This document shows positions 46,255 through 54,065 of a stretch of 64,000 bases of DNA, piece by piece; the stretch's first letter is position 1, and each line of letters opens with the position of its first letter. Under the pieces are notes generated by a model. It was not told the origin of the DNA, searched no databases, and was given only the letters and a program-made list of their open reading frames with translations. Both the position numbers and the translations under genes were made by a program. The DNA is from Limosilactobacillus reuteri. Lineage in GTDB: Bacteria; Bacillota; Bacilli; Lactobacillales; Lactobacillaceae. The stretch covers positions 1,298,501-1,362,500 of the forward strand of contig NZ_CP139478.1 of assembly GCF_034259105.1 (NCBI RefSeq), read 5' to 3'.

Positions 46255-47553
46255 TTAATTTTCTTGATTAGCCTTTACCGGGTGATAGCGATGAAGACGT
46301 TGAGATCCTACATCGATTTCTGCTGGATTACCTTTGTGACCCGGCTTAATCTCAACAAGGCCTAACTTAATAGCCCCCACAGGACAAACAAGTGCACAAA
46401 GTTGACAACCGACACACTTACTCTTATCAAAAACTGGTTGCCGTTTTTCATCATCCCAAGTTAAAGCTTGGTGGGCACCATCTTGACATGAGATAAAACA
46501 ACGGCCACAACCGATACACTTATTCCAATCAATCTTAGGATAAACCTTGTAATTTCGGTCAAGCTGGTTAGTAGGAATAATATTCTTATTAGCTAAGCCG
46601 ACAAGATCTTGAAGGTGGTCTACATGCTGTTCTTCCATGTAATGCATTAAACCATTAGTAAGGTCATCAATGATCCGATACCCATATTCCATGATCGCAG
46701 TTGTAACTTGGAGAGTAGTAGCACCCAAAAGAATAAATTCAGCAGCATCTTCCCAGGTCTCAATTCCCCCAATTCCAGAAATCGGTAGTTGTTCAAGGCC
46801 TGCTGCTGACCGTAATTGTTGTAAGAAACGTAAAGCAATTGGCTTAACGGCTTTCCCAGATAATCCAGAAACAGAAGATTTACCATCAATATTTGGTAAA
46901 CCAACCTTCTTCTTTAGATCAACATCAACAATTGATTTAACAGTATTGATTGCGGAGAAGCCATCTGCCCCTCCTCCTAGACATGCCTTAACAACCGGAA
47001 CCATCGTCGTAATATTTGGTGTCATCTTCGCAAGAACTGGAAGGTTAGTCCCGCGTTTAACAGCTTCACAATTCTTCTTACATAATTCTGGATTAGTTCC
47101 TACATCTGAACCCATGGTATGAGAAGTCATCTGTGGACAAGAGAAGTTCAATTCAATCATATCAGCCCCTGCCTCAGTTACTAACTTAGCCAGGTTGGTC
47201 CAATCTTCCAATGTCTCACCCATAATTGAAGCAATCAAGACTTTATTGGGATATTCTTCTTTTAACCGTCGCATATCAGCCAAGTCCTGCTCCAAGGGGT
47301 GTTCTGATAATTGTTCCATATTCTTAAAGGCAACAAAATGCATGTCTTCCTTGGCTAATTCGTTGAACCGGGGAGAAACTTCATCAATCTTAAAGTGTGT
47401 TGGTGATAAAGTCTTATATACGATACCGCCCCAACCAGCATCATATGCATTCTTACACATTTCGTAACAGTTCCCAACAGGTGAGGACGACAAGCAAAAT
47501 GGATTTTCAAAATGAACGCCTAAAAAGTCTACAGATAAATCTTTTTTAATCAT
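46255..47553 (-). CDS. preA: Dihydropyrimidine dehydrogenase PreA-like subunit
   Basis: A 432-residue protein. The N-terminal barrel of the dihydroorotate dehydrogenase family ([27 protein letters not shown]) binds FMN, and two 4Fe-4S motifs follow near the C terminus: [14 protein letters not shown] and [14 protein letters not shown]. With PreT it forms the NAD-dependent enzyme that reduces uracil and thymine. Its start overlaps the end of preT by 8 bases. Since preT is frameshifted here, the enzyme may be non-functional. Confidence 0.9.
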
Positions 47554-48800
47554 TTTCTTGTCCTCCTAACAACCGGTCTATTTCTTCTGCTACTTCTTTT
47601 CCTTTCTGTACTGCTACCACAACGGTTTTATCTCCGGCAACAATATCACCAGTCGCAAAAACTTTGGGATCTTTTGTCCGGAATCGTGGTTCACGGAATG
47701 GAATATCATTATGCTGTAAGTCAATGTCTAGTCCTTCTGCATTCGCTTTTTGACCAACTGCTAAAATGATCTTATCAGCAGTAATAGTTAATTCACTCTT
47801 AATCTTCCGGTGAGTAAAGGTAGCACGATTCTGATGAACTTCTTTTGGAACGTAACCATCAACAATTGTTACACCAGCTTCTTGAGCACCGGCAAGTTCC
47901 TTTTTAGAAGCTTTGAATTCATCAAACTGCTCATAAACAACATCGGTAACATAAGGAACGTTAAGCTTCTTTAAGGTTGTTACAACATCCATTGCAACAT
48001 CCCCACCACCAATAACAAGGACATTTTGCGGAAGATCTTCTAAATTACCCTTACTTTCTTTTGCCCGGGCTAGGAATGAGATTGCTGATTCAGTACAGAT
48101 ATTGTGTTCAAACATTGGAAGCATCTTTGCTTCACTTGTCCCAATAGCAACAATTACTGCATTGTAACGAGCTTTAAGGTCATCCATTGAAATATCTTTT
48201 CCGACAGTTGTGTTATAGATAATGTGCGCACCAAGGTCGACAATTCGTTGAACTTCATAATCCACAATTTCTTCCGGCAACCGATACTTAGGAATGCCGT
48301 AGGTCAAGTAACCGCCAGCCTTAGCAGCTTTTTCATAGATATCAACTGCATAGCCCTTTTCACGGAGAGTCGTGGCTACTTGTAAACCTGATGGGCCACT
48401 GCCAATGATGGCAATACTCATTCCGTTTGGCTTACCGGCTTTAAGAATCTTCATATTCATCTTTCGCTCCATATCAGTGACATACCGTTGAATCCCACCG
48501 ATATCAATTGGTCCGTCGATTTTAGCCCGGGTACATGCCTTTTCACAGTAACGTTCAGTTGGACAAACACGCGCACAGATTGATCCTAACGCATTGTTTT
48601 CCCGAATTGTTTTCCCGAATTGTTTCAGCTGCCCCTTTGACATTACGAAAAAGAACGCTTCGAATAAATTTTGCTGGATTAGTATGTGCTGGACAAGCTT
48701 GTGAACATGGTGCATCATGACATAATAAACATCGTGCAGCTTCCTGCATTACGGTTGTCATCGTGTAACCTTTCGACTCTGTTTCATACTTTGAAGTCAT
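47546..48800 (-). pseudogene. preT: preT (dihydropyrimidine dehydrogenase subunit) frameshifted by 13-bp duplication
   Basis: The gene begins at ATG 48800 after GGAGG. Residues 1-65 hold the first Fe-S cluster motif (CLLCHDAPCSQACPAHTNP) and end in AAETIRENN. The unit ACAATTCGGGAAA is present twice in tandem (minus strand, 48597-48622) where homology calls for one, shifting the frame. The next frame then reads NNALGSICARVCPTERYCEKAC and continues with the FAD site IIGSGPSGLQVA and the NADPH site VIGGGDVAMDVV to the stop at 47546. Removing one unit would restore the full 41-kDa-class subunit. Confidence 0.88.
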
Positions 48801-49095
48801 TAGACACCCTCCTCTAAGTTGTGACTCTTTGACAATTTTGTGATAAACGTAACTTTGTATATAAATAATATTATATAAACGCTTTCGATATAAGTAGGCG
48901 ATCCCCTTAATATATTGCATCGTTTATTCTTAAAGTTGATATCTTCGTATATACAATATGAATATTTTTATTTAACATCTACAACAGTTTTTGTATCAAA
49001 AATCACAAAAAGAGTCTTATTACTTAATGAAAAATCAAATTCCTTGTACAATTATTACAGAGACATGGTTTGGTTAAATTGAAAGAAGGATTAAC
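48801..49095. other. Divergent promoter region between preT and the ExoIII-like gene
   Basis: On the minus strand a TATAAT lies in GCGTTTATATAATATT near 48870, overlapped by CGAAAGCGTTTAT, a sequence like the core of a CcpA site. Towards the right gene, GTACAATTATTACAG near 49050 may be its -10. No open frame is seen. Confidence 0.5.
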
Positions 49096-49857
49096 ATGAA
49101 ATTTATTTCTTGGAGTGTCAATGGCTTGAAGTCAGCCATTAATCATGGATTTGTCGAAGATTTTAAGCGCCAAGATGCTGACTTCTTCTGTCTACAACGT
49201 ACACGATTGGATAAAGGCGAAGAACCGATTCAAATTCCTGATTATTACCAATACTGGAATTATGCGGAAAAGAAGGGTTATTCTGGTACCGCCATTTTCA
49301 CTAAATATAAGCCAGAAAACGTTATATACGGAATGAATAATTCAATTTTTGATAAAGAAGGGCGACTAATCACGCTCGAATATCCAAACTTCTATTTGAT
49401 TGATGTATACGTCCCAGTTTCAGGTGAAAAGCTGCAACATCTTGATTATCGTCTCGACTGGGATCGCGCTTTCCTTGATTATGTTACTAATTTGCAAAGT
49501 AGTAAGCCAGTAATCATTGGCGGTGATATGAGCGTTGCCTATCAACCAATTGACCTAGCAGAGCCGACAGAAGATCATCATAAAGCCGGCTTTACAAAAC
49601 AAGAACGAGCTGATTTTGGTAAATTACTTAATGCTGGCTTGACGGATACTTTCCGTTATCTCCACCCTAATTTGCATGGTGCATATACCTGGTGGAGTTA
49701 TCGTTATGACGCACGGGAACGAAATGTAGGTTGGCGTCTCGACTACTTCTTAGTTTCTGATGTATGGAAAGAACGAATTGAAGAAGCCAAGATTCTTTCA
49801 GATGTCAAAGGTTCAAGTCACTGTCCAATTGAACTTGTTGCTAATGTTGAAGTATAA
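49096..49857 (+). CDS. ExoIII/AP-endonuclease homologue lacking catalytic residues
   Basis: A 253-residue protein of the exonuclease III (Xth/ExoA) family, full length and in frame, with the family's framework: NYAEKKGYSGTAIFTK, LDYRLDWDRAF, AGFTKQERADFGKLL and WWSYRYDARERNVGWRLDYF. But the catalytic set is altered. The motif normally SWNVNG reads SWSVNG (Ser7), LQETK reads LQRTR (Arg35 for the metal-binding Glu), GDLNVA reads GDMSVA (Ser146), and SDHCP reads SSHCP (Ser241). Asp144, Asp216, Tyr105 and His242 remain. It should keep the fold and perhaps DNA binding, but not the normal nuclease. AAAGAAGG lies upstream of the ATG; it has its own terminator. Confidence 0.88.
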   Translation: MKFISWSVNGLKSAINHGFVEDFKRQDADFFCLQRTRLDKGEEPIQIPDYYQYWNYAEKKGYSGTAIFTKYKPENVIYGMNNSIFDKEGRLITLEYPNFYLIDVYVPVSGEKLQHLDYRLDWDRAFLDYVTNLQSSKPVIIGGDMSVAYQPIDLAEPTEDHHKAGFTKQERADFGKLLNAGLTDTFRYLHPNLHGAYTWWSYRYDARERNVGWRLDYFLVSDVWKERIEEAKILSDVKGSSHCPIELVANVEV

Positions 49858-49890
49858 GAAAACCGAGCTAAATTTTATAATAGTTAAACG

Positions 49891-49931
49891 AAAAGAGGTT
49901 GGAAAAACCAAAATTTTTCCAACCTCTTTTA
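49891..49931. terminator. Terminator after the ExoIII-like gene
   Basis: AAAAGAGGTTGGAAAAA pairs perfectly with TTTTTCCAACCTCTTTT around a 6-base loop, acting on both strands. Confidence 0.92.
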
Positions 49932-49977
49932 TCGTATGTTTGAAATTTGTTGATTATCTATTTTATTAAATCTTGTT

Positions 49978-51013: not shown

Positions 51014-52714
51014 TTAATTATTCATCAAAACATCAAGCAATTCTTGAGCTGATTCTTTCAAAGCATCCTTTGACTTGTCATTACCAAGGTGAGTAAAGAT
51101 TTCTCCAACGTATACACCTTGGTCAAATAGCTTTGTAAAGACCTTGTCAATAATCGGCTTAGTTAATTCTGGTTCTTGAACTGGGCCAAATGGGTTAGCA
51201 AAGAATGTCTTGCTCATTCCAACTTCATCAGTTGTTCCAAGGGCCTTCCGTTGTCCAGCAATAAATACTTTTTCTGCCTCTTCCTTTGTATCAAAACGAT
51301 GAATACCAACTTCATCACTGTAATTGTTAGCGTATAGCCACATATCAATATGGTGATGTTTGATTACATTTTCGTAGGTATCAGCAGGAATAATAACCCG
51401 AGCATTCTTTTGTTCAGGATTAAGGTAAACACCACGGTCCATGTTATTGAAGGCCACGGCACTACTCAAATCATCAAGACGAACAAAGGCACCAGTTTCT
51501 GTTCCTTGAGCATATACCCCTGGTTCACCATCAGTAAGGGTAAAGCTTCCCATGTCATCAAAGATTGTCTCCATGCTGACAATCTTATCGTCAGCTAATT
51601 CTTGCAATGCTTCAATTGATTCTGACTTTCCGGCACCTGAATCACCGAAGAAAACAACATTCTTTTCTTTACCATTAGTAAATTTAATCTTCAACATGGA
51701 CCCGTGAATTGGCAGGCGACCATTGTAAATTTGATGAAGGTTATGGAGCGTCAAGCACATCTTCTTCATGTAACCAAAGTAAGTAGTCTTATCTGTGTAA
51801 GGTACTTCACCAACCCACAAATCATTCTTTTCGTCACGATAGTAATGAGAAACCATGCCTTCTGTTTCTTTTAGACCGAAAAGAAGAATCATATCAGGTT
51901 TTTGCCCCTTAATCTCATCAGGGGATGCAATTTCAAATAAGTTTGAAAGAGCAATTCCGTTTACCAAGTAATCAACATTGAAGTAAATAAAGGCTAAACT
52001 TTCACCAATCTTTGCTGGGTAACAATACCACTTACCACGTTCACCACGGAAACGTTCGATCGGGTTATCTTTTACTTCAGAAAAGACCCCTTCCCGTTTG
52101 TTACTCTTAGTGTGCATCATCATTGGTGGACGAAGCATCACGGTATTAATAAAATCAATATCCTTTAATTCTTCATAACCAGCTGGAATTTTCCAATCTT
52201 GTTGTTGAACTAAAATTGTTGCGTTAGTTGCCGCATTAACTTGTCGATAAGTCCGGTTTTCAAAACCTTGGAGCTTTTCTTCGAGGATCCGGTATGCTTT
52301 ACGCACTAAGTCGTTGAATTGAGTATCAATAGTCCGGAACTCGTTACCGATAATCTTATTATCACTAAGATTAATTACCGATACCCGTAATAGTGAACGA
52401 TAGTATGAGTATAATTCTTCAACACTCTCAAGAATATCTTTAGGGTCATATTCATCAAATACACTATCATCATCAAAAAGAACTTTCTTTAAGATATCAA
52501 CAAACTTATTAACAGTGGCATTATCAAAAGCATCATCATCATTATCAGGGTTACGTGAAGCTAAATATAAACGGACAATTTCCTTTACTTCATCACTATT
52601 AATTAATGAAGGAATATCAGTAAAGTAATTTTGACTATAGTTTAACGTTGCAACACCGCGGTCAGGATTTACATATAATGATTTTGTATCAATAATCTGA
52701 CTCTCTTTTGACAT
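51014..52714 (-). CDS. PEPCK-like P-loop protein with N-terminal extension
   Basis: A 566-residue protein. The C-terminal half carries a P-loop GDSGAGKSES and MWLYANNYSDE, resembling ATP-dependent phosphoenolpyruvate carboxykinase or HPr kinase folds. The N-terminal 200 residues are charged and helical and do not match the PEPCK substrate domain that I know. True PEPCK would be unusual for a lactobacillus lacking a full citrate cycle, so the substrate is uncertain. I start at ATG 52714 with AAAGGA 8 bases upstream. A TATAAT box lies at 52747-52752, and an IS30 element begins about 30 bases beyond it. Confidence 0.72.
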   Translation of the reverse strand: MSKESQIIDTKSLYVNPDRGVATLNYSQNYFTDIPSLINSDEVKEIVRLYLASRNPDNDDDAFDNATVNKFVDILKKVLFDDDSVFDEYDPKDILESVEELYSYYRSLLRVSVINLSDNKIIGNEFRTIDTQFNDLVRKAYRILEEKLQGFENRTYRQVNAATNATILVQQQDWKIPAGYEELKDIDFINTVMLRPPMMMHTKSNKREGVFSEVKDNPIERFRGERGKWYCYPAKIGESLAFIYFNVDYLVNGIALSNLFEIASPDEIKGQKPDMILLFGLKETEGMVSHYYRDEKNDLWVGEVPYTDKTTYFGYMKKMCLTLHNLHQIYNGRLPIHGSMLKIKFTNGKEKNVVFFGDSGAGKSESIEALQELADDKIVSMETIFDDMGSFTLTDGEPGVYAQGTETGAFVRLDDLSSAVAFNNMDRGVYLNPEQKNARVIIPADTYENVIKHHHIDMWLYANNYSDEVGIHRFDTKEEAEKVFIAGQRKALGTTDEVGMSKTFFANPFGPVQEPELTKPIIDKVFTKLFDQGVYVGEIFTHLGNDKSKDALKESAQELLDVLMNN

Positions 52715-52785
52715 GGATCTCATCCTTTCATCACTTGAATAACTCTATTATAATATATTTTTTAAGATTAGGATGAAAATAATAT

Positions 52786-54065
52786 GGTGGATTATAGAAT
52801 GAAGTTAGCCACCCAGTTGGTGGTAAATAAAAAACGCCATTCGGCGTGACATCAGGTATCATATTAAGTGAACCAAACCTATATGAAAGGATGTCCGTCA
52901 AATGACGCACTTAAATGATACCATGTCTACTAGTTTATTGACTACTCATAAAAAGAATGCTCATCTTACTAAAGAAGAACGTGTGATGATTGCGACTTTA
53001 AAGTCGCAAGGACTTTCCAATCGCGCAATTGGTCGCCAATTAGGAGTTAATCATCAAACAATTAATAACGAGCTCAACCGTGGTACGGTCCGCCAACTTC
53101 GTCGTCAAAAATCTAATGGTAAGATTTACGAATATTCTTACTACATCTATAGTTATGAAGCTGGTCAGGCCACATATCTTGAACATCACCGCCATTCTGG
53201 TCGTCGTCGCTTATATTATTCTTCAAAGCAATTTTTACGATTAGCTGATCAGCTAATGCTTGGTGAGTTTGACGACCACCATTACTCCCCACAAGCGGTT
53301 ATTTATAAGGCTCGAGATTTAATGAATGATGGCACCCTGATCCCAAAGTCGGTTGTAACTTTATATCAATGGATTAATGAGGGTGTGCTTCGTACGTCCA
53401 ATTTAGACCTCTTTGAAAAACCTAAACGTAAGCATCATCGAACTCATCCGCAAGCTAAAAGGTGCTTAGGGCCTAATATTGCTCAACGACCTCAAACTGC
53501 GGACCAACGGTCCGAAATTGGCCATTGGGAACTAGATACAGTTCAGGGACAGAAAAACGGTAATGACAGTGTTGTACTAGTAATGACTGATCGCCTTTCA
53601 CGAGTTAATATCACGAGTAAAATTGCTGGTAAAACTGCGCATGCAGTAAATCAGTTCTTTATAAATTTACGCCAGAAAATGGGCACAGATGCTTACTATC
53701 GCATCTTTAAGACAATAACCTCTGACAACGGTTCAGAATTTAGTGAGTTAACACAAGTTCACGATCATGTTTTCTATGCTGATCCGTATTCCCCTTGGGA
53801 ACGTGGATCCAATGAGATCAATAACCGGTTTCTCCGCAAGGAGATTACCAAAGGTGAAGCTATAAATAACTATAGTAGTGCTCAGATCATAGCGACTAAT
53901 GATTGGATGAATCACTATCCACGAGCTATGTTTAATGGACATTCGTCAATGGATATCTATCGTAAGGCCTTCTACCAAGAGATATCACAGCTCCATCAAC
54001 CAATAATCAATTGGTCAGTATTATTTATTTGAGTCCAGTGGCTAACTTATTCTTGAAATTTAGGA
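52786..54065. mobile_element. IS30-family insertion sequence (element C, copy 2)
   Basis: Nearly identical to copy 1, in the same orientation. It is flanked by a direct repeat: AGGATGAAAATAATAT at 52770-52785 and again at 54062-54077. Depending on where the right end is placed, the target duplication is 12-18 bases. It inserted between the PEPCK-like promoter and the terminator of LysM/Apf paralogue 2. Confidence 0.92.
52902..54032 (+). CDS. IS30-family transposase (element C, copy 2)
   Basis: A 376-residue DDE transposase, the same as in copy 1 except Leu for Phe near residue 93. The catalytic motifs GHWELDTVQGQ, TITSDNGSEF and NEINNRFLRKE are intact. The clear target duplication indicates that this copy arrived by simple, recent transposition. 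Confidence 0.94.
   Translation: MTHLNDTMSTSLLTTHKKNAHLTKEERVMIATLKSQGLSNRAIGRQLGVNHQTINNELNRGTVRQLRRQKSNGKIYEYSYYIYSYEAGQATYLEHHRHSGRRRLYYSSKQFLRLADQLMLGEFDDHHYSPQAVIYKARDLMNDGTLIPKSVVTLYQWINEGVLRTSNLDLFEKPKRKHHRTHPQAKRCLGPNIAQRPQTADQRSEIGHWELDTVQGQKNGNDSVVLVMTDRLSRVNITSKIAGKTAHAVNQFFINLRQKMGTDAYYRIFKTITSDNGSEFSELTQVHDHVFYADPYSPWERGSNEINNRFLRKEITKGEAINNYSSAQIIATNDWMNHYPRAMFNGHSSMDIYRKAFYQEISQLHQPIINWSVLFI

Follow-up and report, generated by a model that had tools for sequence, protein, structure and literature searches.

The window analyzed here, a stretch of 64,000 nucleotides from Limosilactobacillus reuteri, contains a gene for a 253-residue protein of the ExoA/Xth family (Table 1), whose full-length reading frame is intact, as the preliminary description had stated. 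A consensus scan returned five promoter-like sites against a mean of 6.7 expected, and thus no excess. Pfam supported preT-, preA- and LysM-type genes elsewhere in the window. The preT-like gene upstream (47546-48718(-), 48555-48920(-)) appears frameshifted, its N-terminal part forming a 121-residue ORF in another frame; it is a single 413-residue ORF in loci L033, L035, and L038. A transposase-like ORF at 52902-54032(+) matched HTH_38, with rve below the cut-off, and is absent from this place in sister loci L038 and L039. A 569-residue ORF at 51014-52723(-) had no Pfam match at 1e-5; it is also close to the gene at the reuteri-type loci that were examined, as well as in genome G037.

Table 1 Features of the gene and of the predicted active site of its product. 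Residue numbers in APE1 follow our own mapping.
Feature	Position in window	Strand	Basis
Catalytically dismantled ExoA/Xth-family protein, 253 aa	49096..49857	+	ORF, ATG start, profile and structure-relative matches
Ribosome-binding site AGAAGG	49084..49089	+	Read in sequence
Terminator-like strong hairpin 3' of gene	49888..49935	+	-24.6 kcal/mol, z -6.6; not listed by consensus scan
Ser7 replaces Asn (APE1 Asn68)	49114..49116	+	Codon AGT
Arg35 replaces metal-binding Glu (APE1 Glu96)	49198..49200	+	Codon CGT; Arg in 8/8 Limosilactobacillus rows, codons CGT, CGA, CGG
Val108 replaces Asn (APE1 Asn174)	49417..49419	+	Alignment
Glu111-Lys-Leu-Gln114, clade-specific stretch	49426..49437	+	Glu111 and Gln114 in 20/20 clade members
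Ser146 replaces Asn (APE1 Asn212)	49531..49533	+	Codon AGC
Tyr149 replaces His	49540..49542	+	Alignment
Ser241 replaces Asp (APE1 Asp308)	49816..49818	+	Codon AGT

Along its full length the protein matched the NCBIfam profiles TIGR00633 (269.7 bits, cut-off 99.05) and TIGR00195 (260.9 bits, cut-off 182.55). Its closest relative of known structure was Bacillus subtilis ExoA (5cfe, 303 bits), a class II AP endonuclease. An AlphaFold2 model with a mean pLDDT of 93.3 showed the four-layer alpha/beta sandwich of ExoIII/Xth proteins, with a TM of 0.97 to 5cfe, making an ExoIII fold plausible. The alignment given to AlphaFold2 (A1) held 34 rows, of which 26 were canonical and 8 belong to the clade introduced further on, and the model is silent on activity because these canonical relatives fed it. 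Among the literature matches listed, no title concerned the window protein, and the portion available of an L. reuteri proteomics paper mentions XseA and not this protein.

Despite this full-length homology to ExoA, five of the nine core catalytic residues of the family (N7, E35, Y105, N108, D144, N146, D216, D241, and H242) are replaced in the window protein. The four replacements initially described (E. coli numbering first, Asn7 to Ser, Glu34 to Arg35, Asn153 to Ser146, and Asp258 to Ser241) were all present when the codons were read. Relative to 5cfe, the alignment has WNVNG as WSVNG, QETK as QRTR, GDLNVAH as GDMSVAY, and GSDH as GSSH. Further changes beyond the first four are Asn108 to Val, His149 to Tyr, Lys37 to Arg, and Arg115 to His, while Asp144, Asp216, His242, and Tyr105 are kept (APE1 D210, D283, H309, and Y171). 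The replaced residues are indeed near-universal elsewhere: all 92 ExoA rows that lie outside the clade have them, as do all 28 rows of the 275-residue Xth type. The same held for the full set of nine core residues in those 92 rows and in all 32 rows longer than 270 residues, which comprise the 28 Lactobacillaceae 275-residue Xth proteins, one row from a Desulfobia MAG (L076), and three from viral contigs. The DNA-facing motifs had been called well kept; positions 12, 37, and 209 are still basic, but the stretch from 108 to 115 has been rewritten.

In the parts available of a study of APE1 (PMC3852660), a single Mg2+ has Asp70 and Glu96 as direct ligands and Asn68, Glu96, and Asp308 as water-mediated ones, the latter three being termed strictly conserved in the superfamily. 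All three have replaced equivalents in the window protein, whose residue at the position of Asp70 is Asn, as in canonical bacterial ExoA. Activity of APE1 fell 2300-fold with E96Q, 600-fold with N68A, and fivefold with D308A, the last variant also being more sensitive to low Mg2+ (PMC3852660). The available text of a second study reports that Asn174 contacts the AP site and that N174A cleaves 22,000-fold more slowly, yet still binds AP-DNA at 44 nM, 50-fold more weakly than wild type (PMC12557600). By analogy with these single mutants, the window protein is probably inactive as a nuclease; the retained Asp144, Asp216, His242, and Tyr105 would be compatible with some residual activity.

The preliminary description had further proposed that loss was selective for the catalytic set. 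The comparison used 64 ExoA rows not belonging to the clade and the 66 sites conserved in at least 95% of them, of which 13 were active-site positions and 53 were not. The window protein changes 6/13 active-site and 8/53 other sites (Fisher p = 0.023), in agreement with that proposal. Pooling the eight Limosilactobacillus copies gave 8/13 versus 12/53 (p = 0.015). The bias was weaker in genus g37 (6/13 versus 11/53, p = 0.081) and absent from Fructilactobacillus (4/13 versus 12/53, p = 0.72), all of these p-values assuming independent sites and depending on our list of active-site positions. Some positions on that list also bear the labels R177, H215, N229, W, and N277.

A 77-row tree built without 11 active-site columns placed the window protein in a clade of 20 rows (support 97/93) made up of 8 Limosilactobacillus rows, 9 from the genus coded g37, and 3 from the genus coded g26, the last including two that equal named Fructilactobacillus records. 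In a 103-row quick tree the 20 rows again fell together at 93, and Limosilactobacillus joined g37 at 89, neither value being starred. The eight Limosilactobacillus rows formed a group of their own with support of only 73/55. Canonical ExoA occurs in three further Limosilactobacillus genomes (G003, G027, and G033); a tree joining the eight rows to it was rejected (p-AU 0.001), so that it is not their nearest kin. Membership of the clade was set by the 77-row tree, so that the 28 rows added later, not being among those 20, were counted as outside; some distant rows of the 92-row set are in neither tree. The family search gave ExoA-type matches in 223 genomes, and sequences were read from a part of these, identical proteins being counted once and those under 230 residues (L032, L033, L122, L169, L170, and L177) dropped. 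Viral loci L164-L172 were left out of the 92-row set, and far outgroups and all but three of the 275-residue rows out of the trees. Net charge is no marker of the clade, ranging from -7 to -1 in Limosilactobacillus copies versus -14 to +2 in 36 canonical Lactobacillaceae rows.

Every clade member has lost between one and five core residues: one in Fructilactobacillus, three to four in g37, and five in Limosilactobacillus. At position 35 the Glu is kept in Fructilactobacillus but replaced by Asp in g37 and by Arg in Limosilactobacillus. The dismantling described for the window gene is therefore real, but rather than one event peculiar to that gene it is a graded series over three genera with differing replacements. 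Position 108 is Phe in 10 members, Val in 8, and Ala and Asn in one each. The Limosilactobacillus fastidiosus copy has N7, G9, R35, F108, S144, G146, and E241; because Asp144 is thus lost there and Tyr105 is Gln in 6/9 g37 rows, the whole clade shares just two, Asp216 and His242, of the four core residues that the window protein keeps. Nearly fixed in the clade and found in under 5% of rows outside are Arg37, Glu42, Glu111, Gln114, and Gly142. Since Arg37, Glu111, and Gln114 are present in all three Fructilactobacillus rows, where 8/9 core residues remain, the comparison suggests that surface change may have preceded catalytic loss.

The window protein is 97-98% identical to proteins from records labeled L. 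reuteri or L. balticus; the L. balticus copy (L043 5001-5753) lacks two residues, Ile92-Thr93, in frame. Maximum-likelihood dN/dS between the window gene and its orthologs was 0.009/0.079 (about 0.11) for L004, 0.012/0.14 (0.09) for L005, 0.007/0.241 (0.03) for L006, 0.023/0.253 (0.09) for L007, and 0.141/2.999 (0.05, synonymous sites saturated) for the 77%-identical L008. The sixth and shortest pair, with L003, gave 0.007/0.028 (0.25) and deserves the least weight because its assembly looks like concatenated coding sequences. In the same analysis, seven pairs of canonical ExoA genes ranged from about 0.02 to 0.18; the dS obtained was implausible for L007-L008 (0.188/0.205) and L093-L090 (0.202/0.219), and pairs with L009 were saturated. 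Coding sequences at locus L126 of genome G035 abut on one strand without intergenic DNA, as if the record were made of joined CDS.

Codon by codon, the window gene and L008 agree at 103 positions and show 88 synonymous and 60 nonsynonymous differences; even so, Ser7, Arg35, Val108, Ser146, and Ser241 are unchanged, and Tyr149 is Asp in L008. These five core replacements are identical in 7/7 reuteri-type rows. Among those rows Ser7 and Ser146 are kept through synonymous codon changes; Arg35 is written CGT, CGA, or CGG across L001, L006, L007, L008, and L009, and the unchanged codons of Val108 and Ser241 are neutral evidence. Arg35 is the sole replacement present in all eight Limosilactobacillus copies, and because the L. 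fastidiosus sites differ, the other replacements appear constrained in the reuteri-type group only and not genus-wide. Sister-strain orthologs thus carry the same replacements, and dN/dS, at about 0.03-0.11 for every pair but the one with L003, shows no relaxed pattern; the frame in the window is intact, and a young pseudogene is ruled out.

The intact paralog that the preliminary description suggested looking for lies in the same genome (G000 C3:1175065-1175877): a 275-residue Xth of the same family, 44% identical to the window protein, in which all nine core residues are present. Of the 50 Limosilactobacillus genomes searched, 8 carry a decayed copy that is intact, 2 a remnant, 3 canonical ExoA, and 36 only matches of 40-46%, which were of the 275-residue type wherever the sequence was read; one had no match at E <= 1e-20. 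The G001 copy is broken by a frameshift and stops, the G037 copy is mostly lost to a 909-bp deletion relative to G034, and in g37 the G295 copy has an internal TAG. The losses in G001 and G037, and the 37 genomes that have the 275-residue type only or no match, indicate that the role of the gene is dispensable. Two adjacent Xth-type matches were seen in each of the g37 genomes G281 (C5:122880-124567) and G334 (C1:1171892-1173578), the second being split in G334. Sixteen genomes were tested for TIGR00587 (Nfo), and 6 matched: the three that have canonical ExoA and the three of g26. None of 7 Limosilactobacillus genomes carrying a decayed copy or its remnant matched, nor did 3 g37 genomes; the window's own genome shows no Nfo. 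Because the paralog is intact and Nfo was not found, class II AP-site repair in such Limosilactobacillus and g37 genomes most likely rests on the 275-residue Xth.

Gene neighbors vary between lineages and give no clue to an operon. A LysM gene adjoins on one side at 5/5 reuteri-type loci, and a preT-like gene on the other at 4/5. The L. fastidiosus and G001 copies occupy another shared place and the g37 copies others again; the two Fructilactobacillus copies examined share flanking genes, murB-like and exonuclease-like as named by reading, with canonical Limosilactobacillus ExoA. Carriage as phage cargo found no support: a scan of viral contigs with alignment A2 gave nine relatives of at most 50% identity, and the five aligned (L164-L167 and L172) carry canonical motifs. 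Plasmid cargo was likewise unsupported, with 23 plasmid records at E <= 1e-40, all below 60% identity.

The original proposal of a pseudoenzyme is well supported at the level of sequence by the intact paralog, the orthologs with the same replacements, the low dN/dS, and the active-site-biased loss. The gene probably encodes a pseudonuclease under purifying selection, a second ExoA-derived paralog kept for a binding role. Mg2+-dependent phosphodiester hydrolysis would have been lost with the side chains that hold the metal in APE1, an arginine standing at the site of the metal-bridging Glu, and the residue contacting the AP site and its phosphate is now a small hydrophobic one. The predicted ExoIII fold and about half of the basic groove residues are retained, and the groove, with the clade-specific Arg37, Glu42, Glu111, and Gln114, may be a docking site for a partner, nucleic acid or protein, that is left uncut, AP-site repair presumably being done by the intact paralog. 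From the observed sequence changes, clade, constraint, and intact paralog we infer the binding role and its ligand. RNA or a protein at the remodeled groove seems likelier as ligand than an abasic site, because position 108 is Phe or Val in 18/20 members; the abasic-DNA binder first suggested is for the same reason doubtful.

The closest precedent is Pseudomonas Crc (4jg3), an ExoIII-family protein that, in the sections available of PMC3662782, is described as having no nuclease activity, Ser for D210, Tyr for N212, and Arg at K98. The window protein is alike in its predicted fold, its active-site replacements, and the Arg at the K98 equivalent. It is unlike Crc in that the sequences are distant (86.7 bits, versus 303 for ExoA), different residues are lost, and it groups among Lactobacillaceae ExoA in a tree built without Crc. 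The best reading is that it is similar in kind to Crc and evolved separately. The same sections state that purified Crc by itself binds no RNA and retains just Arg37 of six basic groove residues (PMC3662782). By a rough mapping, the window protein has three of these positions basic (12, 37, and 209), His at 115, and the two others non-basic, and nucleic-acid contact is for this reason somewhat more plausible here than in Crc.

Narrower forms of the pseudonuclease reading, whose odds overlap with it, can be drawn from these comparisons. A Crc-like post-transcriptional regulator assembling on RNA with an RNA chaperone would fit the nuclease-dead precedent, the Ser144 and Gly146 of L. fastidiosus at the sites altered in Crc, and the Arg37 of the clade. 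It is nonetheless unlikely, given the differing basic face and RNA-binding behavior of Crc, and given that none of seven genomes searched matched Hfq (PF17209), the protein Crc works with; Crc's own mechanism cannot apply unchanged in these genomes. The broader proposal that lactobacilli evolved a regulatory protein of their own from an AP endonuclease, independently of Crc and without Hfq, the clade recording a surface signature first and the loss of other catalytic residues later, is speculative, though conceivable. About as improbable as the chaperone-assisted regulator is a modulator of the active paralog, tuning repair by Xth through competition for nicks and AP sites or by shielding them. 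Wherever Limosilactobacillus and g37 genomes were checked for the two genes, the 275-residue Xth was present as well, which would fit this, as would the residual AP-DNA binding of APE1 N174A, but that binding is weak, Val or Phe at position 108 should likewise weaken docking, and the related, partly changed copies of Fructilactobacillus occur in genomes without a second Xth-type match.

Outside the pseudonuclease reading, the gene could be a slowly decaying redundant copy, freed of catalytic constraint once the 275-residue Xth took over AP-site repair and now being lost. The broken copies in G001, G037, and G295, the deviating replacements of L. fastidiosus, and the presence of the paralog in all 5 Limosilactobacillus and all 10 g37 genomes with a decayed or broken copy that were examined agree with this. 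We regard it as quite unlikely in view of the low dN/dS, which is still about 0.05 to the 77% ortholog, the concentration of changes at catalytic sites, and the five core replacements shared by all seven reuteri-type rows, three of them despite synonymous codon changes. Nothing was found pointing to the new chemistry once suggested: that Asp144, Asp216, His242, and Tyr105, kept in seven reuteri-type rows, act with Arg35 on another phosphate substrate, perhaps without metal, is highly improbable even with the new residues constrained there, as the predicted fold is unchanged and two of the four residues vary within the clade.

If the protein is a pseudonuclease retained for binding, it joins Crc as a further example of an ExoIII-family nuclease that became a non-cutting protein. 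The order of events, a new surface first and a dead active site later, would also be testable, since living sister genera preserve intermediate forms. The window protein scores above the cut-offs of the NCBIfam 'equivalog' models for exodeoxyribonuclease III though its conserved metal-site residues are gone, and the 12 clade proteins in alignment A2 all matched the same models at E <= 1e-20. Because the models accept clade proteins, model-based counts of AP endonucleases in these bacteria may be too high.
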